Shown here piece by piece: positions 14,403-60,553 of a stretch of 64,000 nt of DNA. The notes under the pieces are model-generated. The model saw nothing but the letters and a program-made list of their open reading frames with translations. It had not been told where the DNA came from and did no database searches. The stretch's first letter is position 1; every line of letters starts with the position of its first letter. The DNA lies in contig OZ020521.1 of assembly GCA_963971425.1 (NCBI GenBank), forward strand, positions 23,700,012 to 23,764,011, given 5' to 3'. The translations under genes were made by a program, and so were the position numbers. This stretch comes from Bryoerythrophyllum caledonicum (Eukaryota > Streptophyta > Bryopsida > Pottiales > Pottiaceae).

Positions 14403-14699
14403 CCGGAGATCTCCGGCTGTTCATGCCGTGCTAGTCTGGATTTTGCCAAGCACACTTGCTAACCACGGTTGCAACCCTTGATTCCAGTGGCTATCATAAT
14501 CTTCGAACGCAGGATTTCTGGAGATCTCCGGCTACTCTAGTGTAAAATGTTCATAGAAAGTTTCCTCGCCAGCCTGGTTCTGATTAACTGGAGATCTCCG
14601 GTTAGATACAAATGGAACTTTTAGCTCCACCTTTCTCTCCCTTACTTAAACAAGAAGTCGACGTTCTTGATCATTCTCTACTCAGCCGGAGATCTCCGG
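14403..14699. repeat. Left cluster of CCGGAGATCTCCGG palindromes
   Basis: Four sites: 14403-14416 (perfect), 14518-14531 and 14588-14601 (one change each), and 14686-14699 (perfect). A fifth perfect site at 15213-15226 lies inside the coding exon, and a sixth at 16198-16211 lies in the intron. All are centred on GATC. Confidence 0.9.
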
Positions 14700-14857
14700 C
14701 TAGCTCAGCCGACGTTATTGACGTTGGTCATCCAGTTCCATTCTACATGCACACAATTTCTCATCGAGGGCATCAGCCACCAACCGATCATCCAACGATG
14801 CAGCACGGGAGTATGTCTGACTCAGATTGGTAGGAGAGTGGCTCAGAAGACCTTGCC

Positions 14858-16123
14858 ATGGTCGCAGCTCAGTGCCCTGATTTTGGACATGTGAATTACA
14901 CGGAAGAAGATGATCCATCCCAAGAGTCTACTAGAAGATCGGAGGTTCTGTGGTCAGGAATGTCCGTGAACCTTATGAGGCCTGGTTCAAGCAAAATTGG
15001 AGAAGCGTCCATTGTTGAGGTTCACTCCATGGGACAATGGCTTGGAGTTGACATACCAATCGGTTCCAATGAGTTCGTATTATTTAGACCAACGGCCATA
15101 TCCTCCGCGGCGGAAGAATTACCACTCATTTCCTTGCAACGCCGATACGATTCACTTGTTCACACACTCCAGCGGACCGTCCTATGGAGAAGGGCGGATG
15201 TCATGATTCCAACCGGAGATCTCCGGTCCGACGAGCCCCCATTCGTACCACGAGAGCGATGGGTTGGACTTGAAGTGCAGAGGCTGGACGGAAATGGGTT
15301 GGTGCACTCCTCTGGAAGAATCATGGCCGCTTTACGAGCGGATCATTTCCAAAGTGGATGCTTGGGAGAAGATAATATTGGTGTAACTGTCCTCGACGTT
15401 TTTGTGGGGGACACGGAGAGAATTATGAGTCACGAATCGTGGCCCATTCTTGAATGTTGTTTTTCTTCCGGGCGTTCTTTGAAAAGCACAATTGATCATT
15501 TCGCATCCTAGCCTTTACAACCTGATTCTGGTGCTCATTTGGGGGGTCGTGCAAAGGAGCCTTACCGCTTCATTTCCCGACAACAAGACTTTAACAAGAA
15601 GGAATCCTTGTACACCAAGAGGACTACCGACGACGAAATTCGCAAAGTCAGCTCGGAAAGGTGATGTCCCAAATGATGCTGCCAATATTTTCAACAATCC
15701 CAGTCTCTTTCTGTTAGACAAAAATTCTATGACAAATCCTTTGAAGACAGAAAGGAGTATGCTATATCAGGAGGCGGGCAGTTCCATTCCATTGATGGGG
15801 ACCGGAAGAGAAAGTACGTCACGTTCTTGGGAACGGAGGTCTGCTCTAGCCTCTGTTGCATGGTACACGATCCATGGAGTCCACGTTCACACGTACATCG
15901 GACATTTCAGTAGAGGAATCATCAATGCAACTCACTGTAACAAGGGCATCAAGCGCCCACGGCTTGCCACTATACAGGCGATGGGTTCAATGACGTCGAT
16001 TATTAATGACAACGTGGATCAAATGCCACACCAAATGTGGAGTGTCGGGAATGGTCGGATTGACACTCTCAAGTATCTTCCTGCGGGAATCAACTGGAAG
16101 CAAATTCGTGCCAACGTCAATGA
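14858..16123 (+). pseudogene. Element A transposase, N-terminal exon
   Basis: The coding frame starts near ATG 14858 and stays in one frame to about 15850, then resumes in another frame up to a splice donor after the AAT GAT codons at 16123. TAG near 15509 and TGA codons near 15658-15672 interrupt it. The translation aligns along its whole length with 59139-60416: GMSVNLMRPG...WLGVD and the later blocks RKYVT and KRPRL, then MDTLKFLP or IDTLKYLP. Two modules of the form G-x-G-(x)n-W-LGVD-(x)n-LxRP resemble the small beta-barrel modules of TNP1/En-Spm-type transposases; that likeness is from memory. The intron 16124-16326 carries one palindrome. The function is likely DNA binding or an accessory part of the transposase. 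Confidence 0.55.
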
Positions 16124-16326
16124 TGTACGTCAGACCCTGCATATTGCTATGGATTTGTAATCTTTTTCCTGAGTAGACCGAAATCCTAGTTTCTTAACCG
16201 GAGATCTCCGACTCGGTCAGTGTTGACATGCATTGGCCTTCAATTGATTAACTCTGTACTTCGCACTGTCTGTTGGATTGTTCTTCTGAAATTCTCTTCT
16301 CACTGGGTTATTATTTCATTTTGCAG

Positions 16327-18216
16327 ACAAACGACTCCAACGGTCTCTCTCCTGTAAGTCAGTCCACAGTTAGTAGGGTAAGGAAGGAATTCTTTGGGAA
16401 TGTTGCTATTAAGCCATCTGGAAGCACCTTCGCAAAATGCAGTACTTGCGATGAGTTCAATCAATTCTTACTGACGACTCCAAAGGGAACGCCCGCATAC
16501 GAGCTATTCTATAGCAACAGGCAGGCTCACTTGAATCACCAACAATCATGCCGAAAGCTATACGCAACATGGAGAGAGGAGTCAAAGGCGAAGCCGCTGA
16601 CCTTTCTTTGTGTCATTCACGACAAGATGGACACTGCGAAGACGGCCCTTACACGCATGTGGAGGACTACTAAGGCGACATTTGGTCTCGGACAACTTCC
16701 CATGAATGTCACCGGAATGGTGGCACACGGTCATGTCGACGGAGCGTATGTTCACTATGCTCCTGCTTTATGGCATGGAGATTCGAACGCCACCATATCC
16801 TCTTTGGCAAACCTTTTTAGGCGGCTTGAGGGGGCACCATTACATGAGACGCGCGTGCTCTTCGAGCACCCACCTCCAAACTCGATGTTTGCAGCGTTCA
16901 TGAGGGGAAAGAGCAGGTGCGTCAACGCTTTAGAGCCCGTGGAGCCCAGTGCTTTTAAGGGACCAAAACCGTTGCCACCGAAATTGTTTCTACAGCTCGA
17001 CAACTCAGCGAAGGACAACAAGAACCAATACTTGATGGCATTCTTATCACTGCTAACAGCTCGATGAGTTTTCAAGGAGATACAGGTTGGCTTCTTGGTG
17101 GTCGGACATACGCATGAAGATATTGATGCTTACTTTAGTCATCTATCGAAAGAACTGAAGAAAAGCAGTACATATATTCTAGCGGATTTGATGAAGGCAT
17201 TCATGAAGTCAGAGAAACTAGCCTTCATGCCGGAAGTTATCCAAGAGGTGGCCGACTTTAAATCGTACGTCGATGGCTATCTATGCATTGGGGCGGCACG
17301 TCTGGTGGGACTAAGTGATATGCATCTTTTCAAGTTCTACGTTGACAATGACGGTGTTCCGGTCATAAAGTTCAAGAAATCTGCCGTTGACGCAGAGTGG
17401 TTACCCATGAATAGAGAGCCGATAAAACTCTAGAAGGTAGATGACAGCGGACGTCCCATGTTTCCAACAGGATCTCTCAAGCCCGTCCCATTCAAGCCCA
17501 TATGGGGTAATGAGGAGCAGAACCCGGTCGGAAACTAAGATGTTGCCAGAGACAAGGACAGAAAAGCGACGAAGAACAAAAGCTTCACAAAGACGGGGCT
17601 TCGGAAGTACGTGGACTACTGGGCGTCCGGAATGTCTAAGTGCGCAGGGTACGCAGACTCCATCCGCCGATACCTGCAGTATTGGAAGGACGTCATCGAC
17701 GAGCTTGACAAGCCACTTCCTCAATCGCCCTCCGAACTTGAAGAGGGATTCTGGCCTGCCCATGATTAGAGAGGTCCTCATGAGGGAGGTGAAAATCCGC
17801 TAGGATCGCTTCCACAACCATTGGATGTCACTCCCGAAGATGAGGTTCTCGAGCCTTACTGTAGACCCGCCAATGAAGCCCTAAAGTCCACATTTAATCC
17901 TTGGCGTGATATTCGTCTCGGGTCCTGGATTTTAGTTACACCTAGTGATCCAGACATCTATCATGTTTGGCAGGGAAGAGCAGTTTCGGACGTCGTCAGG
18001 GATGAGGGTAATGTCAACCACAGAAAATTCCTCGTTAAGTATTGGGAGCCTGATAACAAGCAGAAGAATCTGAAGCAGAAGTATCAGGACTGTTGGGAAG
18101 CCACTTGGGTTCCGGACCAAGAGAAGCCTGTATGGTGTCATGTGAGTTCTGTGTTGTTTGCGACTTGGTCAAGCAAAGTTAACCAACTTACGAGATCCAT
18201 TCCACGTAAAATGTAG
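16327..18216 (+). pseudogene. Element A transposase, catalytic exon (DUF7869-type)
   Basis: The exon follows an acceptor TTTTGCAG at 16319-16326 and keeps one frame to the stop at 18214-18216, with a few internal stops (near 17065, 17431, 17512 and 17767). It shows an RNase H-like catalytic plan: CVIHDKMDTAK (first Asp), LFLQLDNSAKDNKNQY (second Asp), then FLVVGHTHEDIDAYFS (His and Glu/Asp). This is the signature I know as DUF7869, a transposase-like family of plants and animals. Upstream lies a Cys pair in AKCSTCDEF. The C-terminal 130 residues (17821-18216) are a basic, W-rich domain with LGSWILV and KFLVKYWEPD, like a chromo or SH3-like barrel. The internal stops are CTAG or TGA types consistent with C-to-T decay. 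Confidence 0.6.
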
Positions 18217-19230
18217 GAAGCAACGCTTGTGAACTTAGAGAAAGCGAATGCCGCCGATCCCTGATACGGTGATCAGTCCCAATTTCTAAAATTCTGTTCT
18301 GTGAAATTATGTTTGTGAAAAATCTCGAAGAGTCTCTACGTCCTCATGGAAGAGCACCGGAGATCTCCAGCTGTGAAAACGATTATTATTTGGTCCGGAG
18401 TTCGACATCCCTCCTTTCAGCTCTCGCCAGTCATCGTGAAGAGAACCGGATTTGTGCTCTTCCATTCGCTGTAATTAGGATACATTGAGTAGTGACACAA
18501 TCACTATTGAGTGATTTATGCCACCGTGATATTTTCAGACCCGCATGTCTCTCAGATAGCTTACCGGAGATCTCCGGGTATGGAAGTCAAATTTCGTGGT
18601 CGGAAGGATGTTCATGTATTGCCATGTTCAAGTCGGTGAGATCTAGTCGGAGATCTCCGGATAGGAGATTCACATCCACGATTCTTAACAATGGGGTCCA
18701 CATTTCCCAATTTTGAGCTTATCTAGGTGTTCTGAAGAGTATTGTAATATATTCGGAGATCTTCACTGACTACGATACTCCAATTTCTCTGACGATGGAA
18801 CTTGTTTCAAAATCACAGTGACCTATTGGACATTCTCTTGGCTGGTTCCTTCTTAGATTTATGACATGCCACTGCTAAAATGAATATGGGCGGTCAATTA
18901 CACAGTTCATATCAGTCATCCGAGTTCCTTCTTATGATTAAAGTGATGTTGATGGTTGGCGGCCGAGATTGTACTTCTCACATCTCATTACGACAGGACG
19001 CTTGACGCGTGGCCTACCATGTTGTTCATTCATGATTGTGGCATCTTCCTTTAATTCCATCAGTCTCGGTGTTATGGCGACTCTAATCAATGTACCTACG
19101 CTCGAGAAGTGTAATTAGTGGGTGGGTAGGGAGGATAGTATAAGAGAGGGTTCAGGACTGCAACAATCCATATGTTTTGCCTTTCAACGATAAGTCTTGT
19201 TAGTCCATAGCCACGGTGGAGAGAGAGGAG
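18217..19230. other. Right subterminal region of element A
   Basis: No gene. It holds four palindromes of the CCGGAGATCTCCGG family: 18357-18370, 18564-18577 (perfect), 18647-18660 and a half-decayed one at 18753. Two more lie beyond the acidic ORF, at 19853-19866 and 20152-20165. Confidence 0.75.
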
Positions 19231-19656
19231 ATGGCTTTCGCAAGTAGGAAGAGGGAGAGAGAAGTCTCTGATTCGGTAGACAGGAGAGTTTCACGAAGGA
19301 TGGTGAGCTAGGCTCAGGGTTCGGAGAAGGGAAGAGTGTTTTTCCTACAAATCGGGTACACAAGGGCGATCTGTTCCGATCGGCGTGTTTTGGACGAATT
19401 GGAGGAGGATGCTGAGAGCAAGTATGTTCAAGAGGAGGACGACGGCATCGACTATGATGCGGAGGATGAAAAGGAGATCGACTCCGATGTGGATGAGACC
19501 CTCAATGGAGGTGCTTTGGTTGAAGAAGAGGAGGACGACGACCCGTGGTATGAAGACGAGGAGGAATCTTCTTCGGAGGGCGGCTGCAGCCCATTTCAAA
19601 CTGGGTGTGACGCAGGGTCTGATGTTGATTCGGACATGTACGCACTGGCGCACTAG
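19231..19656 (+). CDS. Small acidic protein of element A, one internal TAG
   Basis: A frame of 142 codons from ATG at 19231 (MAFASRKREREVSDSVD) to TAG at 19654. One in-frame TAG near 19309, in a CTAG context, separates the basic N-terminus from an acidic body (DELEEDAESKYVQEEDDG, then an EEEEDDDPWYEDEEE run). No known domain. The basic start and acidic tail suggest a nuclear accessory protein, for example a chromatin- or transposase-binding factor; that is inference. It lies between palindromes of element A. Confidence 0.45.
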
Positions 19657-20790
19657 AAGGATCGTTAGAGGTCTTCAGAGGTAGTGTCAGGATAGATATT
19701 GTTCTTTGATCCAGGAGTTTCGCTGAGACCACTCAAAGCTGTCTCGTAGATTTGGTCTTGTATCTGAAGCTGTTGTAAAAGGACTTCCTTCCGAAGAAGC
19801 AATATCGTTTTTGAACAACTGAGCAAATGTTCTTTGATTTCTCTACTTCCGACCGGATATCTCCGGATAATTGAACGGCATTCCTGACATGTCAATGCCT
19901 CCAGCTCTAAAATGTACTATCGTCTTCTGGTACAGCTTCGTGTATCATTGTTCATAGGAAGGACACTAGACGGCGTCCCATGTTTTTTGGTCCTTCTCTA
20001 CTTTACTACCACAGAAATGTATACTACACCATATTACATGCTATGTTAACGTGATAGCTTGAAAGTTGTTATCATTTTGTTGATCAGGACTAACAAAATT
20101 CCACGCGTGTTCTATCACTGTAATCGATTCGTATCGTATTACTGAAATCATCCAGAGATATCTGGCTGAATGATTAAGATATATTAACTGTGTATCCCTT
20201 TCAATTTCTTTGGTGCCACTATTTTACTACACTAAAATCCTTTTTCCTTATTTCTGGACTTTGCAAAGTCCAGAAATAGTTAAATATAGCATGAATGGAA
20301 GAACTTCTTCCAAAGAAGGTTACAACGTATGGGGTGCCTTCCAAAGATCCCCCCCCTTGCTATGTTGATTGGTCCATGGTTCCATTGCATGAAAGAATAA
20401 GAGATTCCACGTGCCCATATATCGCATTTCTCATTCCAAATTCAGTGCACATCACCAAGTAGTGAAAAGGACTGCCGATAGTGGGGCCGCGTAGGCGTGA
20501 TGGCGCTTCACTTGCAACAAGATACCTCGGAACGGAGAGTAAGACCTAATATTTCAAGGCACGGTAGAAATAGTGAAGCATTTTAGGAGCCAACATGTGC
20601 AAGTTTTGAATATACCAAGTGGTGCATGTACCACCTTGTTCGAAAAGCAAATTTAGTTGTTGGATCCAAAATATGAAATCAACAAATACTTTTGAGATGC
20701 TTTAGAGATGCATCAACACATGATTTCTTGGTTGACCTACTTCCATAGGTATTCTCTACAGAAAACAACTCAAACTAGTGTCCATCACTT
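19657..20790. other. Intergenic; end of element A and flank of SWIM gene
   Basis: No gene seen. It contains palindromes 19853-19866 and 20152-20165 and a perfect 28-bp palindrome at 20250-20277 with the core GGACTTTGCAAAGTCC, which is not of the GATC type. Confidence 0.5.
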
Positions 20791-20791
20791 T

Positions 20792-21961: not shown

Positions 21962-22074
21962 CAGGGTTGTCAGGATGCTCGACGTCGCTGACGTCAGGAC
22001 GAAGGACGTCCTCGGGCCTATCAAGACGTCCGGTGACATAACGAGTTTTGTCAATTTACCCGGGGGTAAATAGC

Positions 22075-44091: not shown

Positions 44092-44320
<229 letters not shown>

Positions 44321-45393: not shown

Positions 45394-45632
45394 ATGTAGT
45401 ACACATCAAAAAAATAAGCAACCAAATAGGCATGGAGAATGGGGGTGATGACTATCAAAAAAATATATTCATAGAATAAACTGGATGAAAACCAACGCCA
45501 ACAGAACTCACTGTAGGGAATCGACTACGTACTTCGTAACACTCGCTCAAAGTGCCATGGTTCAAGCAGTCTACGATTAAACTTTACATCCATCGGGTGC
45601 CCCCGCAGATACTCCTTCACCGAGGCGTAAGA

Positions 45633-46154: not shown

Positions 46155-46189
46155 TGATCATAGAGAAAGATACAAGTTATAAACAACAT

Positions 46190-46370
46190 CATGCATCGTA
46201 GGATCCCACCACACTGCCATCCATACTACAAACAAATCATCCATACAACATCCTTAACTACTCCATCCATGAGGGTCGTAGGATCCTACCACACTGCTAT
46301 ACGCATCACAAAAACCATACAATATCCTTAACTACTACATTCTTCAGGGTCGTAGGATCCTACCACCCTA
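46190..46370. repeat. Palindrome-bearing ~80-bp tandem repeat
   Basis: Three palindrome sites (about 46199, 46270 and 46350), all of the type GGGTCGTAGGATCCTACCAC, each followed by CACTGC and CCTTAACTAC blocks, giving a roughly 80-bp repeat between the two NIF genes. Confidence 0.75.
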
Positions 46371-46524
46371 AGGATAATTCATGGGAGATATTGCGATTAA
46401 TAATATTCAAAATAAGATAATGGCCTCAATACTGAAGAGTGTCTGATAGAGTAGAGGTACATCCTACAAGCTTATATTGAAACAAAATATACAAAATATA
46501 CACATCACCGAAACGAGTGAGTAG

Positions 46525-49500
46525 TCATTGTAATGCCCCGACTTTGGAATTCCATTTTCGGGAACACCCAATTACGATGTTCTGAGCCAACGCAGTGGAC
46601 CTAAATTCTCTAAGAACCGGACATCCAGGAAGGGGATGGTTACGGACATATTTGGCCACAGAGAGATTTGAGGAAAACATATTCTCGAGCCATGGAAGCA
46701 TAGTGTTCATGAGGAACTTGTCCTTCAGGTCACCTGTCCACGTTTGAGGATGAATCGCATTGAACTCATTGTTGAGGAGGTTCTTCTCCAGGCTGTCGTC
46801 AATGAGCAATGTCAGACTGAGGTCTACGTGGTCAACATATTTCCTGATGTTTCTAAGGTCCTTGAACATGTACTTCTTCTCAACGTTCACTATAAGAAAC
46901 CCGTGTTCTTTGTGACAGGGCAACTAACGTGCAATTATGTTTTGTGCAGCATCCGGCACGTCAACGTTGACGTCCAAAAAAATCCGTTATAATTGACATG
47001 CGAAAAACATGCCAAAATCTCAAAAAACAGGCCCACGTTTTTTAAAACGTCACAAAAACTTGGGGGTTGAAGGTGTTAAAAATCTGCCATGTGGCTGCCA
47101 CGTCGCGTCCACGTCATCGCCACATGGACGGGCAGTGCCACATCCCCAACTTTTTCATCCGGGCCCTTGGTAATGTGGCCCATGATGTGGCGCATGACGT
47201 GGCATACGATTGTGACTAGGCTTGCATACATGGACCCGCCATTTTATGACGTGGCACCTTTAAAATATGACGTGTCACTTTTTAAATTATGACGTGGCAT
47301 GTCCAATCAGTATAGTTTAATGCAATAATTAATTGTGGATAGTGTAAATTGGGACGTCATTTCTAACACGGTATGTTTTCTGTGACGTTCGTTATGACGT
47401 TTTCTGTGACGTTCGTTGAGATGGAGGTCACCAAAAGCAAGCACCAAGTCAGCAAAAGCAAGTGCCATGTCACCAAAAAGAAGCCCATGTCATCAAAAAG
47501 TACCATATCACTTTAAGTTTGAAGGGTAATTCAAATTCATCCAAATAGATGGATGAAAGTGAATCACTCTTGATTCAAGTGTGATGAGATAGGAGAGAAG
47601 GCCTTACATATATATACAATGGGATGCACAAGTGGCGACAATCCATATGGGATTATTGGATTTGTCATGGTGTTAGCCTCGTGTTAGCATAAACATTAAA
47701 ATGTCACAGTAGACGTCCATCCAGACGTCTGTTCCAACATCCTCTTTGCCTACGTGGCAGCTGATTTCAACCTTGCCTACGTGGCACAAACATTTTAAAA
47801 AGAATCCAATTTCTACCTTACCTACGTGGCTCAAACATGTTTTTTGTGATGTCAGTAAGGACATCCACATTTTTTGTGACGTCAGTAACGACATCCACGT
47901 TTTTATTTTTGTAGGGGTCAGCCCATCTCCATTGTGTTTTAACCGTTGGGCAGTGTTTTACGGGAGGTTGCAGTAACAATCTTGAAGTTACTCACAGTGA
48001 AGCTAAACCCCCGTGCCGACGTGGCATTGTCACCTTTCTGAGGACGTTGTCTAAAACATGACTATGTTCACTAGGACGTCCCGCAAAACAAATATGTTTA
48101 TGCTAACATCTCTGCGTTTTTCCGCCAATTTTTCCATGTTTGGGTGCAACATCCACCAGAATCCGAGAGCCCAAGGCTCGGCCCGTTTGCAAAAACATGT
48201 TTTGAAAAACACACTTGATCACAGCTAACGTCACAAAAATCACGGGTTTCTTATAGTGGTTGTTCCCCGCTCTCGGAAAGCTCGACTCCGTAATATCAGA
48301 TTGTGACATAACTGTTAGGTCATCTAGCTTTACAGTAGAACTACCCAAAGCCACCTGTAACATGCTATCGACATTTTTCCTCATGGCACAACTCCATACC
48401 ACGACAATAGCCTTATTTGTCAGCACCTTCAGAAAATTTGCACAGTCAGGTCTAGCGACAGTTTTACGCCCCTTATCGTATGATCTGTGAATCAAAAAGC
48501 CATTCAAGTCCAGCACAACAGTGTACCGAGGTTGCCTTACATTTGCTGATCTAGGGGCTGATTTAATGGCGGGTGTACTGAGTTTTCCTGCAGAAAACAA
48601 ACGTTGCAAGCATGAATCTCCAATTTAGAAAACTAATAATAAGCAGTAGAATTGTCGAGAATCATACCTTCTCTAGAGGAACCAGAGCCCTTATGTGCCG
48701 CCGATAATGGAACCTTTTCACAACGTTGAGCAGTCCCCGACATCTCAACTGCCCAAAAAAAGGAGGTAATTAGTGAAGAATACACGACCAAAAAGCCATT
48801 CAGAATACTTATACATTTCCAGCATTCGAGACAACAGTGCTGGAGGATAGTAGGATCCTACCATCCCATTAGAATCGTAGGATCCTACCATCCCAATAGG
48901 AACGAAAAAGACTACACTACCCAAAGCGATCGTAAGATCCTACGATGGCCGTAAGGATCGCCCATCCTGAATTCCCCTGAGGATAATAGTGTGAACATAG
49001 AACATAAAAGATACACAGAAAACAACAACATGGTAGAATTTAATAGCTCATACCTTCTGCAGAGGGTCCTGCATCGGTATGTTGTGCGGATGGAGGACCC
49101 TTTTCAGCAGCATCAGCCTCAACATCAGGTCTTGGGACGATCCTAAAGGTTGTTGGCTGAATTTCTTGACTGAAATTCAAAGGGTCATCCAAGTAGTTCT
49201 CAACAATAGGTGTATTCGAAATGTTCCTAGGAGGGCTGAAGGCATGTAGTGACTGACTAGCCTCCTCGAATATGCCTATGATAAACTCCCTATCGAACGG
49301 CGCTTTACTTACTGGGGGTGAAACAGTCAAATCAATGTCATGAAACGTAGCAAGTGTATTCGCGGCATAGTGTTGCTCGTTATTCGTCGTAGTCTCCATG
49401 TCCTGGCTGGAGGAAGGCTGAGACGATGGTTCTAACTCCATCCGTGTAGGTCCGGACGACGAGGGATGAAGCACGTCCGATCTTCTCGGCTTTAAAGGTG

Positions 49501-49894
49501 GAACATTCGTGACAGTCATCCTGGTGATCGGAGCAAGTAACTCTTCCTCTCCGAGCAACAATGCCTCCTCTTCTCTTCTTGTCCTTTCCTGATCTGGAAC
49601 AGAACTCACCTCCAGAAGTTCACCTCCTCGACAACTCAGGTCCTCATGGCACTCATCGGGCAAGTTGTTAACTAGAGCATGAAGGCTGCTATCCTCCTCT
49701 TCAAAAATTGTGCTGGCATTGACATGGTCGATATCATGCATAAGAGAATCGCCATAGCCGTAGACATGCTCCGCCGCTGCTGAAGTAGACGGCACATGAT
49801 CGTCATGCGAAATTTGGAAAAGCTGCGGCCATGAAATAAGGTCAGTCAAGTTGTTGTCCCAGTTGGGAACTACTAATGAAAAATTGAACATCAA
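46525..49894 (-). CDS. NIF/FCP1-type HAD protein 2 with long disordered N-terminus, split by CACTA element
   Basis: Minus-strand exons: about 49894-49043 (disordered, acidic and Ser-rich, donor GAAG|GTATGAG), 48748-48668, then 48589 down to TGA at 46525-46527. The last exon is interrupted by the CACTA element 46888-48258; without it and one GTT copy the frame runs on unbroken (PRAGN then VEKKYMF). The NIF domain shows VVLDLNGFLIH (motif I with the second Asp replaced by Asn, a change I know from many plant NIF proteins), RPDCANFL, VVVWSC, LTLLIDDSLEKN (motif III) and WTGDLKDKFLMN. Weak or no phosphatase activity is expected. It is the central gene of the element B block, and palindromes lie in its introns (48851-48944). 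Confidence 0.6.
46888..48258. mobile_element. CACTA (En/Spm) element, 1371 bp, non-autonomous
   Basis: The left end CACTATAAGAAACCCGTG and the right end, read inward, CACTATAAGAAACCCGTG match perfectly, flanked by GTT (46885-46887 and 48259-48261). CACTA termini with a 3-bp duplication define the superfamily. Inside are subterminal repeats of TGACGTGGCA and CTACGTGGC in both orientations. No transposase. It sits in the coding exon of the NIF gene. Confidence 0.9.
48851..48944. repeat. Intron palindromes of element B
   Basis: Three sites in the intron of the NIF gene: near 48851 (AGTAGGATCCTACCAT), 48875 (ATCGTAGGATCCTACCAT) and 48929 (ATCGTAAGATCCTACGAT). All are centred on GATC. Confidence 0.85.
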
Positions 49895-50860
49895 GATGGC
49901 TTAAAGCATGTGTAGGTGAAAGTGCTTTGTACACCGAAGCATCTATGCATAACTGCAATGATCAGAACCTGGTAAAGTTATTTCTCTACAACGAAAGATG
50001 AGCAGGGATAGTAGGATCTTACGATCCTAAAGCAGTCTTCGAGTAGTAATTGATGACTATATCAAGTAAGATGGATCCATCGATACATATATTCCAAGTT
50101 CTATAAACAACAGGCGGAGCAATGTCATTCATACCGGCGGCTCAGAAGATGAAGTACGCAGATGCCGATCATGTACTTCCACAGTTCCCTGCATGGAGTG
50201 GAAATATGATGATGAATATAACGAATATGCAAAGAGAAAATTAACAACAGTACATTGCTGATCAGTTCACATGGTTATTGTTATATACAATTGTCCTAGA
50301 ACAGTTTGTCCGTTGACAAAGATAAAAAAAAGCGTGTGTATCATACAATGGTCGCTTCATGGGCACCGGTTTGTGTAGAAGAGGGAGGAGTCAAGTTGAT
50401 TTGCTCCTGGTTATCCAACTGCAATCTTCGATGAGTCTTGGACCTGCCCGACCGCCTGTCGTCCAAAGGCGGATCCTCCTCTTCGATGTCCTTCGCCTCC
50501 ACGTCCTTCGCCTTCTCGGAGGCTGCCTCGTCCGAGTCGCTGGAGGAGTCACTCTCAGAGCTGGATACCGGTATGACCTTCTTCTTGCCTCTTGCGATCT
50601 TCTTTTTCTTTCTCTCGCTCACAGTCAAGGCTGCCATGGCAGGTACCGCTATTGCCAGCATCTGAGCACTTTCCCAGATATCTTTCGCTGTCTCATCGGC
50701 TCTCGTCACTTCATCCCTGGAGAAGACGACTTCGATGACTTGTGCTCCTTTAGTCTACAACAGAGAGTAGTAGGTGTATTAGATAACAGGAAACAGATTC
50801 ATACGATGTAAAGATAGCGTGGAAAGAGAACTTAAACAAACTAAGGGATGAGGTAAAAAG

Positions 50861-50882
50861 ATCGTAGGATCCTACGATCATC
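50861..50882. repeat. Palindrome at a splice donor
   Basis: ATCGTAGGATCCTACGAT lies about 10 nt inside the intron whose donor is CTG|GTAAGATGATC near 50886. The donor itself reads like half of the palindrome (GTAAGATC). Confidence 0.7.
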
Positions 50883-52379
50883 TTACCAGGCCAATCCAGG
50901 TAATCAAAGGACCCCCACTGATGTTGACAAGAAGATTATTTGGAGCCCCTAATGTGCCAAGCAACTTGCTAACCGCGTCGATATTGAAATTGGCATATGA
51001 ATGTTGGGCCCATTGCTTGGGAGCATCCTCAAAATCTGTTGCGGATATTACTGTCTAGAACGGCATCTCATTCCCAGAAGCTGATCGGAAGCACTGTGCT
51101 TCAGCCGAATTGAAGTCATTCCCATACACAAAGTTGAAGTACAGGGGCAACGTTGGTTCAGGTGATGAAGGACTGACGAAGCCCTCCGTCCCCTAGATAA
51201 TGTATAAAGTTGGTGTGTGAAACCAGGGTAGCGTTTGTGTAGCGACCATGCCCCTTTCAGCTACAGCGTTGGGAACATCCACCATTCCTGCCCGATCTGT
51301 GATAAACACACCTGGATATCGGACCCTCCTGAACTGGTTATCATCCTTATGCTCCATGGCCTGCAGAGTACGCAAAACGTGTTCCATGATTGAAAAATAA
51401 GGTTTTTGTTTCTCTTTGCCATTGACAAAGCAGTACACCATAACCACCGTCGCGTCCTTCTTTGTCCATCGAAGCATTTGGTCATTGCCCAACCGTAGAA
51501 TCTTTGCCAGGTCTCCAGCTTTCCTGTTCATCTAGGCGGATTTATATTTCGTAGAAAGCGACGATGCGGACGAGGTTGGAGCGCTCTCAGCTCGATTCTC
51601 CTTGATGGCCTTCTGGTGATCGAAGAGCATCTTTAGAATAGTGGGAAAATCATCCTCCTTGTTTGAGGGGGCTAAGGCGGATCCTCGCTTCAAGAAGAAG
51701 CGCTCTCCAGCAGGGTCCTTAATAGCCTTCTCAAACCACGTTTCGATGGTGGCTTTGGTGACCTTGTACTCCGCTGCAGCCTTAACATAATCATCCTCAG
51801 AATACGAGGCTTCCTTCAATGTCTTACACCTCAGGGGCTTCTTAAAGAAGTAGTGCATGAACTCATTCTTGATGAGTCTATGCTTCTTCTCAGTCTGACA
51901 CGCCTTCTCGAGGCCTTGAAGGACGGGCACCTTCTTCGCCGACTTCGTCGACTTCACCGAGACTTTCTTCGCCATCACCAACTTGGCCATCTTCTCGATA
52001 TCACTATCCCACATGAAATAAAGTGGCATCAAGTCGTTCTGCTTTAGAGCCCTTGCCTGGTATCGCTTCTGCTTCAAACGCTTCTTCCTAGACCTATCCT
52101 CGTTGTCCTCGACGTCATCTGCAGAGTCCTCGTCAACACCTGAGACAAAGCTCAAAGTTACCCCGAATGCGTCGGGAAGAAGTCCAAGTACCCAGCTCTC
52201 CTGGATCTGTAACCAAATCTGGAAAATTGGCTCCGAAACAAATAGAAGAGGATATTTTGGGATTCTTGTGTTGATGTCTTCAACGATCTTGAATCGGAGT
52301 TGGAGAACAGTGCCGGAAGTTTATCAGACCAGGCCTGCAAGGATATGGGGAGTGAGAATTGACACACATAAATTTTCAG

Positions 52380-52450
52380 ATAGTAGGATCCTACGATCCT
52401 GACAACCATGTGGTAATTTGAGTTAGGATTGTAAGATCCTACGATCAGTC
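52380..52450. repeat. Two intron palindromes of element B
   Basis: GTAGGATCCTACGATCCTG near 52382 and ATTGTAAGATCCTACGATC near 52427, in the intron between the ParB-like exon and the next. Confidence 0.85.
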
Positions 52451-53939
52451 TATAGCTTGTACATGAATCGGTAAGTCAAACATTAACCTAATGGGTAATG
52501 TTTCAGTGACTCACCTTGAACTCATTGGAGTGCGTCCATTCTTGGATGGAGCTGGACTACCGGCTGAAACCCAGCTCTTACGCGCTAGACCCTGCAGGGT
52601 TAGATAGTTGCCCTCTGATCTAACGCCAGCAAGATCTTGGTTGAAGACCCTTGAGTAGTATAGCATCAAGTTCCAGTCCTTGGGATCCTGCCAGACAATT
52701 GTTATGATGAAGCTCTTGGCATCTCTCTCATCTTCTTCTGAGAGACTTCCCTCCTCAATGAGGACTCTGTGTGCAGCCACGCAATGTTGCCCGCCTATAA
52801 CCACATAGTGTGTGTTTGGGCCGATGTCCTTCAGTGTTGGTTGCTCCTTGAAAAACTCGTATGCATCGTGCGGCACGTCCTTGAAATCTTCTTTCCGGAC
52901 TGGATAATGTCTCTTCACTGGCATCACGTACAAATGTTGCAGTGATGCCTGAAATGGCATCGTGCGCTTCTGGTCAATGAGCTGTAATACTCGCTTCTTA
53001 TCCAGTGGTCGATAAGCGACACTACCGGCTGGAGTTCGGTGAAGGCGGTCAATGTACACTACCAGATCAGCGGGGTCCTGCGGGGACACCTTCATTGGCT
53101 TCTTACAAAAAATATGGAGTTTCGAGAACTCTCTTTCGTACAGAGTCCTCACAAGCTGCAGCTCTTTTGCGGTTTTCCCTGCACGGTCTTGCTCGTCATC
53201 CCCACTGCCTTCGCAAGTGTGAGTTCGTCCACCTTGGGGTCCGACTTCTTCCGAGTCTGCGACTTCTTCTTTGGTGGCCCCTCCGCCGCAAGAAGTGAAG
53301 ACAACCCCTTCTTCTTAGGAGGTGTAGGCGGAGCCGCTTTCTGTCGGTCTCTATTATACGAATCTCGATTCGCCCGTAGCTCCTTCCAGCCTTGGACAAT
53401 CCTTCGAACGTCGGGATTAAAATTCGATATAGTAAATCCCTAGTCCTTGACCGATTCGTTTAGTGCAGGAACCAAATCTACTTTGTCAATGACTAAGCCA
53501 TATACCCTGGAACATCCCGAACTCGCCACAAACTCGGAGATGACAATTACAAAAATGGTGGCGGTCAGGTGCAGTAACTCTAGTACTTCCATATTCATTG
53601 TTGATAATTTGTATGAAGGACCTCCAGGAGCTGCGGCATTTGTAATAGCCAACACTGGCGCTATCAGAATGTTTTTTTGCTTCCGGTCAAGCGTCCAATG
53701 AAGACCCCATTCCACAACCTTGTCGGCCATAAAAAAAGCGGTGGGCTCAGGATCACTAACTAGATTACATTCTATATTCCTCAGCCTACATGAAACAGCA
53801 TCATAGAGGTTCACATGACACCAGTCGGGGTTCACGTCTTCGAGTTTGATGATGTTTTCCCTGACCAAACCAATGCATAAATTCAGTAGTCATATAAGAA
53901 ACTCAGGTGTCAACGATTTCCTTTCAAATCACGGGAAAC

Positions 53940-54575
53940 CATCTAACTAAAGATCGTAAGATCCTACCATCTTAAAAGACACGGTTAGTTCATACAGACC
54001 TTTGGGGGATCGTAAGATCTTACGATCCCATTCTACAATGGATATAGATGAAGTTGTGATACCAAGAGTACTCTGTGAAATGGATCATAGGATCTTACTA
54101 TCTTTGAGGGGATCTTTGGTTCAAGTAGACCTGAGGGATTGCGAAAGATCATATGATTCCTCAAGGGGACCGTAAGATCTTACGATCCTGAACGGGACCG
54201 TAAGATATTACGATCCTGAAAGGGATAGTAAGATCTAATGATGCTGTCTAGAATCGTATGATCTTACGATCCTGAAAGAAATCGTAGGATCTAACAATCC
54301 TCATGGAGATCGTAAGATCTTACGATCCTCATGGGTATCGAAAGATCTTACGATCGTGAAAGAGATCGTAAGATCTTATGATCCTGAAAGAGATTGTAAG
54401 ATCTTACGATCCTGAAAGGGATCGTATGATCTTACGATCCTGAAAGGGATCGTATGATCTTACGATCCTGAAAGGGATCGTATGATCTTACGATCCTTAT
54501 GGGGATCGTAAGATCCTACCATCCTCATGACGATAGTAGGATCTTACGATTTCCATGAGGATCGTATGAACTTCA
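53940..54575. repeat. Dense 28-bp-period palindrome array of element B
   Basis: About 18 sites of ATCGTA(A/T)GATCTTACGAT separated by CTGAAAGGG or CTCATGGGG spacers. Exact 28-bp periodicity is seen at 54421, 54449 and 54477. Variants at the edges carry one to four changes. It lies upstream of the 53868 coding block, probably in an intron or promoter. Confidence 0.9.
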
Positions 54576-54799
54576 GGTGCACTTCAACACCAATGTACAA
54601 CTTATGATAACTTTATGTGTAAACAGTGTACAATAGATCTACATTCGATCGCGAAAAGTTTGCTTACCATACACAATAATCCTAAATTGCATATCAGACT
54701 ACAAGGGGTTAACATACGATTCAGTAATACTCGATGAGTGTTATGACATTCATGACATACTACAAAGCCTGTAAACCTGAGTATGAGTACTAAAGCTAG

Positions 54800-55560
54800 A
54801 ATACCATTCACATCATTCAACAGAGCTTGTAAAGCAGAACATGGAAAGGCTTAGTAGATAATCATTCAAAAGATTGTACACATCTAGCAAACTTTACCTG
54901 AATCCTAAAGCTGAAAACATTCAACACATACTAAGCACCTTGTAAACCATTCAACAGAGCTTGTAAACCAGAACATGGAAAGCCTTAGTAGAAAATCATT
55001 CAAAGATTGTACAGATCCAACAAACTTTACCTGAATCCTAAAGCTGAAAACATTCAGCACATACTACGCACCTTGTAAACCATTCAACAGTGCTTGTAAA
55101 CCAGAACATGGAAAGCCTTAATAGAAAATCATTCAAAAGATTGTACAGATCCAACAAACTTTACCTGAATCCTAAAGCTGAAAACATTCAGCACATACTA
55201 CACACCTTGTAAACCTAACATGAAAACCTCAATTGGACAATCATTCATAACATAATTCACACCTTGCAAACCTAACACAAACACCTGAATCTAATAATCA
55301 TTCATAACATACTACGCACCATAAAAACTGAACATGGAAACCTGAATCTGACAATCATTCATAACATTCAACGCACCTTGTAAACCTAACATGAAAACTT
55401 CACTGAGACAATCATTCATAACATACAACGCACCTTGTAAACCAAACACCAACACCTGAATCTGACAATCATTCATCACATGCTACGCAGCTTGTAATCC
55501 TAACATGAAAACCAGAATCTAACAATCATTCATGTCGTACTACAAATCATCTAAACCAGA
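54800..55560. repeat. Tandem repeats (about 125 bp, then about 60 bp)
   Basis: Three copies of a roughly 125-bp unit (ACCAGAACATGGAAAGCC, CCAACAAACTTTACCTGAAT and CAGCACATACTACGCACC blocks) from about 54840 to 55210, followed by five or six diverged copies of its 3' half (CTTGTAAACCTAACATGAAA, ACAATCATTCATAACATAC) to 55540. Confidence 0.8.
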
Positions 55561-55724
55561 ACGCGAAAAAGGAAAATTTAGCATCATTGAAAGGATAGAA
55601 ACTTACAGGTCACTCCAGTCGCTTGCATTGCCTGATCGACCTGTCATCCTCCTGAATTGGTACACGCTAGATGAGACGCCCTGTTAGAAGCTCGTGAGTC
55701 ACAGCAACAACACCTATTCAATGT

Positions 55725-56160
55725 CTAAAAAACATCGATAGTTGAAGAACTCCGAACAACTTCATTCTCCTTACGAACATCCTCAGCTGTACAAAGACCT
55801 AAAAACACAAAATTTCTAATACATATCAACTGACCAGAGTTTCTAAGAAGAAAATTCTTACCTCGAAGTATTGTTTCTTGCAAGTCGCCGCACTCTTTCG
55901 TAACGACGCGTCCGCCAATCGCACCGATTTGCAGTTGAAACGCACTCACACGCACACTATTTTCCCACCGCTCACAGCACTCACAGACGCGCATACAGTC
56001 ACGGTAATCACAATAAATCACAACAAAATTCGGACTCAAAACAAGAAAACTGACATGAAAACAAAAGTGAGACGAAAACAAGAACCAGAAGGAAGAAGGA
56101 GGAGGAGGGAGGGGGAGAGACAACAAAAACTGTCATTGATGGTTGGACAACTCCTCCACG
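55725..56160 (-). CDS. Probable first exon of the minus-strand gene block of element B
   Basis: Open on the minus strand from about 56126, with CT-rich leader sequence upstream, down to a good donor CGAG|GTAAGAATT near 55861. The conserved-looking part is SAFQLQIGAIGG then RVVTKECGDLQETILR. No domain. Position and orientation fit the 5' end of the ParB/NIF gene block, with the promoter near 56.1-56.2 kb. The start codon is uncertain. Confidence 0.3.
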
Positions 56161-56389
56161 ACGGCTGAGTTGCGGTCTACATCAAGCTCTAATGATGCTT
56201 TGAGTCATCATTACCATACGGTGAAGACTAATACCTCTAATCAAGAATTCTACTTTAATTCAGAGTTTGGAGCTGAAAATTGAATTAAATAACAAGTTCT
56301 TTAGACTTCACTTCGTATGATATTCTTGCACTACACAAGCTCTAAATCTCTTAACATTGTCTTAAGCATGAGGTTAGTTCCCTACAAAC

Positions 56390-56880
56390 CAATTTTTTAG
56401 ATTCCACTTCATTCTATTCAATCTTTCATAACACTTCTTCTTTCTATTTTTTGATTCCACCTATTTCTATTCAATCTTTCATTTGACTTATTCTTTATTC
56501 TATTTTTTTATTCCACTTCATTCTATTTATTGATTCCACTTCATTCTATTCAATCTTTCATTCTACTTCTTTATTCTTTTTTTTTATTCCACTTCTTTCT
56601 ATTCAATCTTTCAATCTATTTCTTTATTTTTCTTTTTCATTCTAGATATTTCTATTCAATCTTCCATTACACTTATTCTTTCTATTTTTTGATTCCACCT
56701 ATTTCTATTCAATCTGTCATTTGACTTATTCTTTATTCTATTTATTGATTCCACTTCATTCTATTCAATCTTGCATTCTATTTCCTTATTCTATTTTTTG
56801 ATTTCACTTCTCTCTATTCAATCTTTCATTCTAGTTCTTTATTCTATTTTTTGATTCCATTTCTTTATTCTATTTAAGCA
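56390..56880. repeat. Pyrimidine-rich ~60-bp tandem repeat
   Basis: About seven or eight units built of TTCTATTCAATCTTTCATTC, TTCTTTATTCTATTTTTTGA and TTCCACTTCATTC. Confidence 0.8.
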
Positions 56881-57069
56881 TGATAAGCTTTAGATATTGA
56901 AATGACCCCCAAATGAAAGATTTTAATTGAATCTCCAATCCAAAGGTGAATGTCTTGCTATATTCTAGTACATTTATTGTATGTTTAGTGTAAAATATGT
57001 GAATGTTTTATCCAAGCTCAACCAATCATTTATACAAGGGTTTCAAGGATTACCCTACACCTTGAATTT

Positions 57070-57430
57070 TAGTCCAATATCCTAAACGTAGAATTCCTAA
57101 ACCTGAATCCTAAACCCTAAATCCTAGGACCCCAAACTCTAGGATCCCAAATCCTAGGACCCTAAAACCTAGGACCCTAAACCCTAGGACCCTAAACCCT
57201 AGGACTCCAAACCCTAGGACCCTGAACCCTAGGACCCTGAACCCTAGGACCCTGAACCCTAGGACCCTAAATCCTAGGACCCTAAACCCTAGGACCCCAA
57301 ACCCTAGGACCCTAAACCCTAGGACCCTAAACCCTAGGACCCTAAACCCTAGGACCTTAAATCCTAGGACCCTAAACCCTAGGACCCCAAACCCTAGGAC
57401 CTCAAATCCTAGGACCCCAAACCAACCACC
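57070..57430. repeat. CCTAGGACCCTAAAC 15-bp minisatellite
   Basis: More than 20 tandem copies of CCTAGGACCCTAAAC with few changes, fading into CTAAACCTGAA-like units up to about 57610. The ACCCTAAACC half is telomere-like. A minus-strand open frame of repeated VLGFR residues is translated repeat. Confidence 0.9.
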
Positions 57431-57609
57431 ATGAACCCCAAACTCTGAGGCTAAAAACCCGAAACCTGAAACTCTAATCCTAGAAACTTGAACCCCAAAC
57501 ATTGAAGCTAAGACCGCGAACCTAAAACCTTATACCTAGAACTCTAAACCTGGAAGCTTGAGTTTGTTATCTTGTACTCTAAACCCTGAACCTAGAACCC
57601 TGAACTATT

Positions 57610-59060
57610 AACCCAGTCTAACAGGTTAATGATTGTAACCATGACGAATTCTCGTAAGTTCATGAGTACTACTGAAACACGTGTGTTCTTCATGATCACT
57701 GGACGTTCCCACAATTCAAGAACAATTTCACTAATATATTTTATCTTGTCTCCGTTGTTGTCATTTTCCGTCTTGGAAATAATTACATTCGAAGTGGCAC
57801 TCGTACAGCTCTCCACGTCCTTGAAAATGATTGTGATTCTGACCCCGCCAAGGATTCAACCTGTTCTTGATGAACTTCCCGCTTTCTTTAGATCAAGAAG
57901 AGGTTGCTGTGCTTTTAGTGTTCAAACATTTTGAGTTCATTTCCAGCAGAGTTAGAGTGTGAGAGAGTTGTATTTGCCCAAGAACTGAGAGCATTGTGTT
58001 TTGAAGAAACTTGGAGTATTAGAGCGTCAGAAATGCGGTATCGTCTTTGTGTTTAGTCGAGCTTGGGCTTCACCTACTTCGACACCTCTTCGTCATGTTC
58101 TGTCAAGTTTAGGTAGTGAGCTATAAGCTGTAAGCTCATCTTAACCTTCACGTCAATGTGAGCGTCACATTCACGTCAATGTGAGCGTCACAATCACGTC
58201 GATCTGAGCTTTTCAAGTTGATCGAGCGCTTCATTGCTGCCCCGCTGCTAGTATTGATCCATCTCTCTCCGGTTCCATCACAATCTACGGTACTGTCTCC
58301 TTCCTCCACTTTCTACGCATTAAGGTTTTCAAATATTTTGAAAATGCAAGTGCCGCCGTGGTTTTCAGAGTTGATGCTGTTGTAAGTGAGCTAGAATCAT
58401 AGATTCAAAACTAATTCTAATCGTGAGAATGTTGCGGTGGTTCGTAAAGTATTTGCTGTTTTAAATTAGTCTATATCATATTCTGTAAACTACTCATACT
58501 TGTGGTGGAATCAACTTTTGCCATTGCTTAAATGAACTAGTTCAGTAGCTATTATTGTGTTCGTAAACGTACTTTCCGTACAGTCATGATGATTGTACGA
58601 TCTTGGGTGGTCGTATGATAATATCGGATGATCGTAGGATAGTACTATCCTTGATGATCTGTCATGGGTCATGTTAAGATCGTATGATCCTACAATCTAT
58701 TTTGTGGTAGATGAAAACGGGCTTTGAGGGCATCCGAGTAATCTGGAAGATCGTAGGATCTTACTATCACCGAGGATCGAACTCGGGTTCTGGAATGATC
58801 GTAGGATCTTACGATCTCTTTGGTTCGGTATCGAACGAGGAATGTGGATGTTGTAGATAATCTCGGATGATCGTAGGATCTTACTATCGCCTATGATTGT
58901 TTAGGAGTTACCGAACAATTGTAGGATCTTACGATCGATTTGTTGATACTCTGGGGTGATCGCAGAACCTGGAAATCAGAGGTGAGCTTGAGATCATGGT
59001 TCATCGTAGGATCTTACAATCTAGTATCATCAGGCTTGATTTGTTGATTTGTCTCTTACG
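57610..59060. other. Leader/intron region of element B transposase
   Basis: No clear coding. A short 29-bp direct repeat (TCACGTCAATGTGAGCG) is at 58148-58200. About eight palindromes or half-decayed palindromes of the element B type lie at 58590-59020, with GTAGGATCTTAC cores at about 58751, 58799, 58870, 58922 and 59007. Confidence 0.6.
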
Positions 59061-59138
59061 ATTTTTTATTCATCAGGAGATCGAAGACCAGGGCTGATCG
59101 AAGGTTTATTGGATCCTTTTCTTTCCGGTTGCCTTTGA

Positions 59139-60416
59139 TGTCTTCAAGTTGCGGACCGGACGATGAGTTTACTGATTCTGCGAGCATTAACCCTGATGTT
59201 GATGCCAATGACGTGCGAAACCGATATGAACCGGGCATGAGTGTTTTACTATGCTACCCTGGACATGGCGTTGTTGGACATGCCATTGTCATTGAAGCTG
59301 TTCCTACTGGGTGTTGGCTTGGCGTTGACATTGATATCACGTTTGTGGAATTGACTCTTCTTCGACCTGTTGAGATACATGCACGGGCACGAAGTCTACT
59401 AATTCATCCAATGCAGGAGGGCATCTTTGTCTTGGCTGAATCGATTGGTAGAACAATTCTCTAGGAGACAGCAAGCCTTGTCCTGATTTCGGACTTAGGC
59501 GAAACTTCTGGGTCCACAAACACTCTTCCTTTTGTACCTCAAGTAGAGTGGGTGGGGAAGGTTGTGAAGCGGTTTAACGGTGATGGGGATCTTATGGCCT
59601 CTGGTAGCATTAATTGCGTCTGTCCGGATGAGCCGTTCGAAAATAGTACTTTGGGGGAGGGGAACATTGGCGTCACAGTATTCGACGTTTTCGTCGAAGA
59701 TCCTAGTGATATTATAAGTCATCGGAGGTGGCCCATTTCCGACTGTGCATTCGAAGGAGGACATAGTCTTAGCGATACGCTCGACCATTTCAATCGTCTG
59801 CCTGACGCACCGGACGCGAATGCGCACCTGGGTGGCCGCCCAAAAGCACCATTCCGGTTTGTTCGTCGCAAAAAGCGGACTGAGGAGAAGCTCAACGCAT
59901 TCGCTAAGAAGACTATGCCGGAAGAAATTCAAACAGTGAGTTCGCAATCATGTTGTTCTGATGAATGCGTGCGCTTAATCAGGCCCTACGATACCCTTTT
60001 CATTCACCAGAAGTTTTGGCTGAAAGACTTTGACGAACGCCGGGATTATGCAAGGTCTGTCGGTGGACAATTACGCTATATGGGCAACAATCGGAAACGA
60101 AAGTATGTTACTATACTAGGTCAGGATATCTGCGCTACAACGTGGTACAAAATCCATGGCATACCGAAATCTACGTTTCACGAATATATGGACTAGTACA
60201 AGAAGGGTATCGTCTCCTCTACGCACGGGAACAAAGACGTCAAACGACCCCGCCTTGGAACCGTGCAAGCACTTGGTACGATTACGGCTATCATCAATGA
60301 GAGTGTTGATCACATGCCCAATCAAATGAGGTTGACAGTACCAGGGCGGATGGACACTCTAAAGTTTCTACCCTCTGGACATAGTTGGAAGAAGATCCAG
60401 GCTGACGCCACAGAGG
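59139..60416 (+). pseudogene. Element B transposase, N-terminal exon
   Basis: One frame throughout, probably entered from an upstream exon at a CATCAG acceptor near 59072, ending at donor GAG|GTATTAC after 60416. Two in-frame TAGs (near 59461 and 60194, both CTAG) are its only breaks. It aligns end to end with element A 14858-16123: GMSVLLCYPGHGVVG...CWLGVD module, FVPQVEWVGKVVK, LGEGNIGVTVFDVFV, LDHF, HLGGRPK, RKRKYVTILG, KRPRLGTVQALGTI and MDTLKFLPSGHSWKKI. It ends at the same intron position. The catalytic DUF7869 exon is absent because unrelated sequence begins about 200 bp further on, so no active transposase can come from this copy. Confidence 0.6.
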
Positions 60417-60536
60417 TATTACTCTACATAGTACACCACATGAACCACTTTTCTACATTCACGTGTACTTTAAGCACCTCATGATTATGATAATGTCCTG
60501 AAAGACCCTCTATCTTTGCTCTGTACATCTAGTTCA

Positions 60537-60553
60537 TGGTAGGATCCTACGAT
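60537..60553. repeat. Last palindrome of element B
   Basis: TGGTAGGATCCTACGATCG, in the truncated intron after the transposase exon. Confidence 0.8.

Follow-up and report, generated by a model that had tools for sequence, protein, structure and literature searches.

In a 64,000-nt stretch of the Bryoerythrophyllum caledonicum genome (contig C9:23700012-23764011; hereafter the window), two transposons, designated elements A and B, carry many short palindromes that follow one design and differ in their arms. Both are incomplete, and they derive from homologous transposons whose two genes are divergent: The transposase gene, comprising an N-terminal open reading frame (ORF1) and a DUF7869 part, is opposed by a gene with NIF domains on the other strand. 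The first-pass annotation of the window had described GATC-centred palindromes with exchanged arms for A, B and a third group called hAT. This description is correct for A and B and incorrect for the hAT group, and it extends beyond the window, as the sites recur genome-wide (whole assembly, 437 Mb, 894 contigs). The palindromes are probably binding sites for a dimeric protein that is encoded by the elements and co-evolves with them.

In element A, 10 sites of CCGGAGATCTCCGG are present at up to two mismatches (4 exact, 6 with one mismatch), all between 14403 and 19866, where 0.10 per window are expected and none of 100 shuffles reaches 10. At three mismatches two more sites are added, one at 20152 within element A and one at 32569 outside of it, so that the earlier figure of about 12 A copies was fair. 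Element B contains 38 sites of TCGTARGATCYTACGA at up to three mismatches, all within 45036-60552 (0.77 expected per window; shuffle maximum 3). Their 20-bp consensus is GATcGTARGATCYTACgATC, and 14 of them belong to a single 28-bp tandem array (54170-54549). The previous count of more than 40 was too high even for this degenerate version, and exact copies in the window amount to only 2 for TCGTAAGATCTTACGA and 7 for GTAGGATCCTAC. Words of the A and B repeats rank among the top rows of an unbiased k-mer scan of the window. The sites are scattered over the elements and not confined to subterminal regions, as had been claimed. By contrast, their proposed occurrence even in coding sequence holds for one A site only (15213..15226, in a linker, where it reads TGDLRS), which is also coding at the homologous place of a complete family A copy (element index 12873). 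None of the 38 B sites overlaps one of the 11 ORF blocks, although these make up 39.7% of the B span (P ~5e-6 for the 24 dispersed sites).

The site comprises 20 bp, as information drops to near zero beyond this length in both A and B. The symmetrised A consensus is CANCCGGAGATCTCCGGNTG (22 of the 23 sites of the complete copy at up to three mismatches), and the symmetrised B consensus is GATCGTARGATCYTACGATC (21 of the 24 dispersed window sites), whose outer C is weak. Mean flank identity is about chance (25% in A, 28% in B), with single pairs reaching 82% and 80%. Dispersed copies are thus mostly not remnants of duplicated longer segments, and this origin was rejected as the main one. Read from the outer end to the centre, the half-sites are CANCCGGAGA in A, GATCGTARGA in B, GACCGGAGGA in type D and GATCGGGTGC in type E (the latter two are introduced below). 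In our reading of these four consensus sequences, position 2 is always A and position 9 always G, which would form a shared framework, and the block between them varies.

Sites in B are conserved beyond their surroundings. For this comparison 29 of the 30 best-scoring B copies (L051-L080) were aligned; L053, with one site only, was excluded. For the eight sites of the aligned region, mean pairwise identity is 0.988 for the 12-bp cores and 0.978 for the full 20 bp, compared to 0.930 for non-site noncoding DNA at 58560-59040 and 0.951 for coding DNA. In other words, the cores diverge by 1.2% and the neighbouring noncoding DNA by 7%. None of 5,000 random placements reaches the 20-bp identity of 0.978. 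When columns in CpG context are removed, the cores still stand at 0.992 versus 0.941, and again no random placement out of 5,000 matches them. At five upstream sites 26-27 of the 29 copies retain the exact core, and at 60537 all 29 do. Site 58632 is degenerate (1 of 29 copies within one mismatch), and 58680 carries one mismatch in 29 of 29.

A and B have their sites at corresponding places. Upstream of ORF1, element A carries four sites of CCGGAGATCTCCGG with no or one mismatch (14403, 14518, 14588 and 14686; span 14403..14699) and element B a cluster of seven (58632..59019). After the ORF1 part, A has a site at 16198..16211, between the ORF1 and DUF7869 parts in an inferred intron, in the same relative position as the B site at 60537..60552. 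By inspection, both elements likewise have sites ahead of the opposite-strand gene and in the gaps that separate its conserved blocks. In B the former comprise 53954, 54010 and 54085 together with the 28-bp tandem array (span 53954..54549; array 54145-54550 according to Tandem Repeats Finder). Between blocks, position 5060 of the complete A copy (blocks ending at ~5172 and starting at ~4961) corresponds to 52381/52429 in B (between 52514 and 52320), and position 1196 of that copy corresponds to B 46196-46350. Corresponding places with different arms mean that positions were kept and letters replaced.

Genome-wide, 2,718 exact A sites contrast with 3 copies of the reversed control and none of a GATC-centred palindrome in which the A arm letters were permuted, which speaks against a similar density of such palindromes outside the elements. 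Exact B sites number 66 (reversed control 0). Four further transposase lineages (L081-L084) with 61-71% amino acid (aa) identity to B ORF1 were opened among the many listed. Sites of this design had been predicted for unseen lineages, and all four carry them: three of the four are GATC-centred, and the arms are close to those of B in two. L081 has GTAG-GATC-CTAC in a 26-bp array and additional sites following ORF1, L082 has TCGTAG-GATC-CTACGA, and L083 (type D) has new arms, GACCGGAG-GATC-CTCCGGTC. L084 (type E) carries GATC-GGGT-GCGC-TCCC-GATC and degenerate repeats thereof, a quasi-palindrome with outer GATCs around a GCGC centre. Hence, GATC is found at the dyad in A, B, D, L081 and L082 and is not the obligatory centre that had been assumed. 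D sites (ACCGGAGGATCCTCCGGT) occur 46 times and E sites (GATCGNGTGCGCTCNNGATC) 61+66 = 127 times in the genome, each with a reversed control of 0; copies of the D core CGGAGGATCCTCCG number 61 (control 1). In total there are four arm groups: A, B-like, D and E. Among 74 loci (L010-L083), some of which overlap each other, no locus combines two of the three arm types counted there (A at up to two mismatches, B at up to one and D as exact matches). At finer scale the arms are less private than proposed, as L081 and L082 share the GTAG arms of B. The L081-type 18-mer ATGGTAGGATCCTACCAT is present 26 times (control 0) and in 16 cases has a B-like ORF1 copy nearby, so that it does not belong to L081 alone. 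One palindromic design with lineage-specific arms, each mostly restricted to the respective lineage, is found in A, B and the further lineages and not in the hAT group.

Contig C1 (65 Mb, ~15% of the assembly) holds 80 of the 127 E sites and 26 of the 46 D sites; as a guess, it resembles a transposon-rich chromosome, perhaps a sex chromosome. In the 30 best loci of other DUF7869 elements (L014-L043) no repeated GATC dyad was seen within ~3.5 kb, a weak negative since much of this DNA is coding; one of these loci has a single perfect GATC dyad. Many of them have open frames of ~1,070 aa, several scoring identically, and a first look yielded 3,604 DUF7869 candidates in the genome. Viral contigs contained no relatives of the DUF7869 piece or of the opposite-strand alignment, and the B pattern matched nine viral stretches once each, which is chance level.

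To relate arm type to transposase, 150 ORF1 matches were classed by identity and alignment limits as a stand-in for a tree, and site clusters were assigned to an ORF1 within 15 kb, the A, B and E sites being those among the matches listed. All 50 A sites listed among the 2,718 lie within this distance of an A ORF1, and all 21 B clusters with a nearby ORF1 are beside the B-like class. Six of 13 D clusters are near an ORF1, five of them beside the class whose alignments end at residue 242 of the query (in one case with an unclassed ORF1 nearby as well) and the sixth beside the class starting at residue 9 or 10. Among 18 of the 47 listed E clusters with a nearby ORF1, 17 adjoin the class that starts at residue 14, 15 or 19, and the remaining one adjoins the class starting at 2-4. 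The expected co-occurrence of arm type and transposase class was thus seen wherever B could be paired and in five of six D and 17 of 18 E clusters, but many clusters have no listed ORF1. These data suggest that arm type mostly tracks the class of the nearby transposase; the link is only suggestive and carries no formal test because the classes were defined after the match list had been seen.

The hAT palindrome CCGTCCGATCGGACGG does not belong to this system. Instead of the many copies reported, the window holds one exact copy and eight at up to three mismatches (0.05 expected). Among 74 GGACGG/CCGTCC words in the window, a single pair forms a dyad with a 4-bp gap, and GATC precedes 10 of the 74. 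Genome-wide, 41 exact copies fall into 40 clusters at 20 kb, so that they are nearly always solitary; one cluster holds two, and none of the 40 lies within 15 kb of a listed ORF1. On account of this solitary occurrence and of the single 4-bp-gap pair, the hAT palindromes were rejected as a third member. The clusters called hAT are GC-rich and rich in CGGACGG (400-700, 10690-11120, 22050-23100 and 30290-30700), two of them are 81% identical over ~400 bp, and the top 8-mer of the k-mer scan, CGGACGGC, originates from them. They represent a separate repeat family without a GATC palindrome system.

How can the sites of A, B and the further lineages be explained? A symmetric 20-bp site, tens of mostly noncoding copies, group-specific letters and the constraint in B argue for a dimeric sequence-specific protein encoded by the elements. 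Each lineage group of these giant DUF7869 transposons would encode its own binder for 20-bp operator sites dispersed mainly in noncoding DNA, and the two-fold dimer would contact ~10 bp per subunit. The framework (A in second and G in ninth place of every half-site, usually with GA|TC at the dyad) would be kept, and about six intervening positions would be re-specified in step with the binder. From sites that precede the two divergent genes, fall into presumed introns and, in A, lie near the ends, the bound protein would most likely control element transcription and chromatin in cis, by self-activation or by anti-silencing in the manner of VANC in VANDAL elements. Since most sites are internal, such regulation is favoured over recognition of the ends alone. 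Its action would be limited to its own family, so that lineages would not cross-react. A bolder version, which we consider possible rather than probable, is a modular self/non-self address code used by a whole superfamily of giant eukaryotic DNA transposons: The dimer would read 20-bp near-palindromes composed of a fixed framework and interchangeable 6-bp blocks, tens of dispersed sites per element would be re-spelled together whenever a lineage switches its specificity, and the protein would coat or mark no family but its own, by anti-silencing or ParB-like spreading.

Several observations weigh against a co-evolving element-encoded binder. Searches of Pfam and of PDB sequences revealed no DNA-binding domain in any of the three, ORF1, the DUF7869 ORF and the gene on the opposite strand (those in NCBIfam and PHROGs covered the opposite-strand pieces). 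The single A pair, window versus complete copy, is identical at 203 of 220 site positions (92.3%) compared to 90.6% elsewhere, i.e. without clear constraint, in a window copy that carries stops. One D and one E cluster adjoin an ORF1 of another class, and among the matches listed 9 of 30 B, 7 of 13 D and 29 of 47 E clusters are without a listed ORF1. The classes are alignment coordinates chosen post hoc in place of a tree, and the class starting at residue 9 or 10, which comprises 37 of the 150 ORF1 matches, is outside the lineages opened, so its arms were not seen. Moreover, the GTAG arms common to B, L081 and L082 imply that arm type does not switch at every branch.

Alternatively, the palindromes might be transposase-binding sites for end pairing or excision, comparable to the TnpA motifs of En/Spm but spread over the whole element. 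This would agree with the sites near both ends of the complete A copy (350 and 522 at the left, 17520 and 17757 at the right; the last of these is the left variant in reverse complement) and with the association between arm type and transposase ORF1 class. However, most sites are internal, located upstream of both genes, in inferred introns and in the 28-bp array of B, and end pairing alone would leave unexplained the site following ORF1 whose core is exact in 29 of 29 copies. We regard it as unlikely. Host proteins that recognise each family by its palindromes to silence it are very improbable: Family specificity and noncoding placement suit any sequence-specific factor, but selection on the element should purge silencing sites, yet they are conserved among B copies, and it can be argued that every arm type would require a host factor of its own. 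An equally slight chance is given to a functionless by-product of slippage, gene conversion or a mutational hot spot. In its favour are the tandem arrays of B (28 bp) and L081 (26 bp), a window site (14588) to which nothing corresponds in the complete A copy, and the single A pair without clear constraint; however, flanks are mostly unrelated, corresponding places carry different arms, B ORFs are avoided and B sites are conserved beyond their neighbours, so this by-product reading is already disfavoured.

A special case of the element-encoded binder would be a ParB-like protein that nucleates on the palindromes, slides and coats the element, as in ParB/parS. By eye, the opposite-strand gene contains a motif resembling a ParB box, IGGQHxVAAHxVL, the opposite-strand gene of Ectocarpus Sola1-1_Ec32 has ParB-like and DNA methyltransferase domains (PMC12477816), and parS and the Noc-binding site (NBS) are one palindrome design with swapped bases (PMC7383237). 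Against this, no match to a ParB family was obtained in Pfam up to E=10 with the trimmed region, in NCBIfam, in PHROGs or among PDB sequences, and tblastn against phages yielded chance matches only. A scan for the methyltransferase motif [DNS]PP[YFWH] gave one match, in a stop-broken stretch, and the single-sequence fold has a mean predicted local distance difference test (pLDDT) score of 32.8. We therefore consider the ParB-like variant rather improbable.

The elements themselves can be described with the help of the complete family A copy (loci L049 and L050), which extends over 17,769 bp at C1:1561628-1579396 (element index 129-17897). It begins with ATGC and ends with GCAT, its inverted ends are imperfect (24 of 29 positions match), and TAGG flanks it on both sides as a 4-bp target duplication seen in this one copy. 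The left end (ATGCC) of a second family A copy begins at the same base. The plus-strand gene of the complete copy consists of open frames of 535 and 650 aa, the second with DUF7869 (E=2.8e-46), and a NIF domain (E=4.1e-13) was detected in its gene on the opposite strand. The four sites nearest to the ends (350, 522, 17520 and 17757) have variant centres: Both left sites read CCGGATATCTCCGG, 17520 reads CTGGATATCTCCGG, and 17757 is CCGGATATCTCCGG in reverse complement. Elsewhere in the genome, site layouts of family A elements span ~15 kb. When the 50 best NIF copies were matched with the first 100 A ORF1 copies on the list, 46 proved to have an ORF1 within 25 kb, in all 46 cases on the opposite strand and at a median distance of 10.6 kb, which means that the NIF gene and ORF1 travel together.

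Element A in the window is the counterpart of the right part of this copy. Its transposase part, with the left part missing, covers 11114..20292 on the plus strand as delimited by blastn against the complete copy and ends with ...AGCAT at 20292. Positions 13222-19928 share 89-91% nucleotide identity with the complete copy, and the preceding repetitive stretch shares less. The ORF1 block, the N-terminal part of the transposase gene, is located at 14834..15508 (plus strand) and was recognised by homology to B: Identity to B 59465-60193 is 50% over 88 aa, and B 60197-60481 is 53% identical over 74 aa to the A piece that follows. The DUF7869 (PF25273) part at 16252..17430 on the plus strand was detected in two pieces (E=3.1e-16 and 7.9e-22) and is broken by one stop. 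Downstream sites are found at 18357, 18564 and 18647 (18357..18660), and two sites near the right end, 19853 and 20152 (19853..20165), have a variant centre and align to index 17520 and 17757 of the complete copy; 20152 is degenerate. The right terminal inverted repeat region (20249..20292) ends with ...GTTAAATATAGCAT and was located via the complete copy; from window sequence alone, no convincing inverted ends of A or B were found.

In element B, whose sites span 45036..60552, the opposite-strand gene comprises a first NIF/HAD-like domain in two parts (46528..46923 and 48106..48624; span 46528..48624, minus strand, by domain search), a second NIF/HAD-like block at 45636..46157 (minus strand, E=8.9e-08) and the blocks 51535-52320 and 52514-53314 (51535..53314, minus strand). 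The latter are 31-32% identical to the complete A copy, and Pfam assigns no family to them. Over all matching blocks, the opposite-strand genes of the complete A copy and B are 29-34% identical. ORF1 of B consists of three stop-to-stop pieces at 59048..60481 on the plus strand, homologous to A 14834-16157. A DUF7869 half downstream of it was not found among the ORFs scanned in the window, nor were the ends of B. By inspection, a different repeat-like sequence follows from ~60.7 kb, and no A- or B-type sites are listed in the window to the right of 60552. At the right edge of the window (63643-63999, minus strand) lies a further NIF-domain piece (E=5.3e-06) that is 39% identical over 71 aa to a NIF piece of B. 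The usual HAD phosphatase motif has a second Asp. In the NIF domains of the elements it reads DLNG (L049:1463-2179 and window 48106-48624, both minus strand), and these domains may be catalytically dead, judging from this motif. Telomere-like CCCTAAA repeats are present in the stretch that separates the divergent genes of both A (13242-13341) and B (57079-57423). A perfect TTG triplet repeat of 76 copies (44093-44320) adjoins element B, and at 2761-5439 of the window a 1.3-kb inverted pair with 76% identity overlaps an RNase H gene piece at 3991-5037.

In En/Spm (CACTA) elements, many short subterminal motifs are bound by the element-encoded TnpA; CACTA elements have CACTA-type termini and a 3-bp target duplication. 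Elements A and B resemble En/Spm in having many copies of a short element-specific site with a putative binder of their own, but here the sites run through the whole element, and the ends are ATGC with a 4-bp target duplication in the one copy. hAT elements have an 8-bp target duplication, which also differs from these 4 bp, and no hAT family is listed for the ORFs scanned in A and B. Apart from VANDAL/VANC, we know of no well-documented group of DNA transposons in which each lineage has private recognition sites dispersed genome-wide. In open-licence papers, no earlier description was found in searches for four of the motif strings (which led to a single, unrelated bacterial paper), for DUF7869 (no paper) or for family-specific, palindromic or element-wide transposon motifs. 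Nearly 3,000 sites were counted, they fall into at least four arm groups, and many copies within this one genome retain long open frames; the system thus allows a direct test of how a DNA-binding protein and its tens of dispersed sites shift their specificity in concert. It might also be a source of natural orthogonal protein-operator pairs.

A 4-bp target duplication, as seen in the one A copy, is known from Sola2 (PMC3627910) and not unique to Sola elements. Sola1-1_Ec32 of Ectocarpus is a 21.5-kb transposon, and accessory proteins of this kind were proposed to bind and modify their own transposon (PMC12477816). It shares with elements A and B the giant size and an accessory gene on the strand opposite to the transposase. 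Here, however, NIF/HAD-like domains and no intact methyltransferase motif were seen, and the main text on Sola1-1_Ec32 does not contain 'palindrom' or 'subterminal'. ParB-parS and Noc-NBS likewise use one palindrome design with swapped bases, there with a matching specificity switch in the DNA-binding pair, but their sites have a 16-base consensus in place of a 20-bp footprint with tens of sites per element (PMC7383237). Palindromic sites in several copies are thus common to both systems, whereas profile searches revealed no ParB homology. Among systems whose mechanism has been worked out, VANC comes closest: VANC21 and VANC6 recognise family-specific short motifs in noncoding VANDAL DNA, from which silencing marks are removed (PMC5735166, PMC10398659). 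There, too, related families each have their own short motif, noncoding and often in tandem arrays, and motif and encoded protein are thought to change together. By analogy, the binder and its anti-silencing role in A and B would be the counterparts of VANC. Family-specific short motifs concentrated in noncoding DNA are found in both cases; the VANC21 motif, however, is the 9-base YAGTATTAY, arrayed in a single orientation, while the palindromes here measure 20 bp, share a framework and include one quasi-palindromic type. One of the A sites lies in coding sequence, and the elements have DUF7869 with no MULE family among the ORFs scanned. What has been found is therefore a VANDAL-like system of family-specific motifs in a different type of transposon, with an unusual palindromic design.

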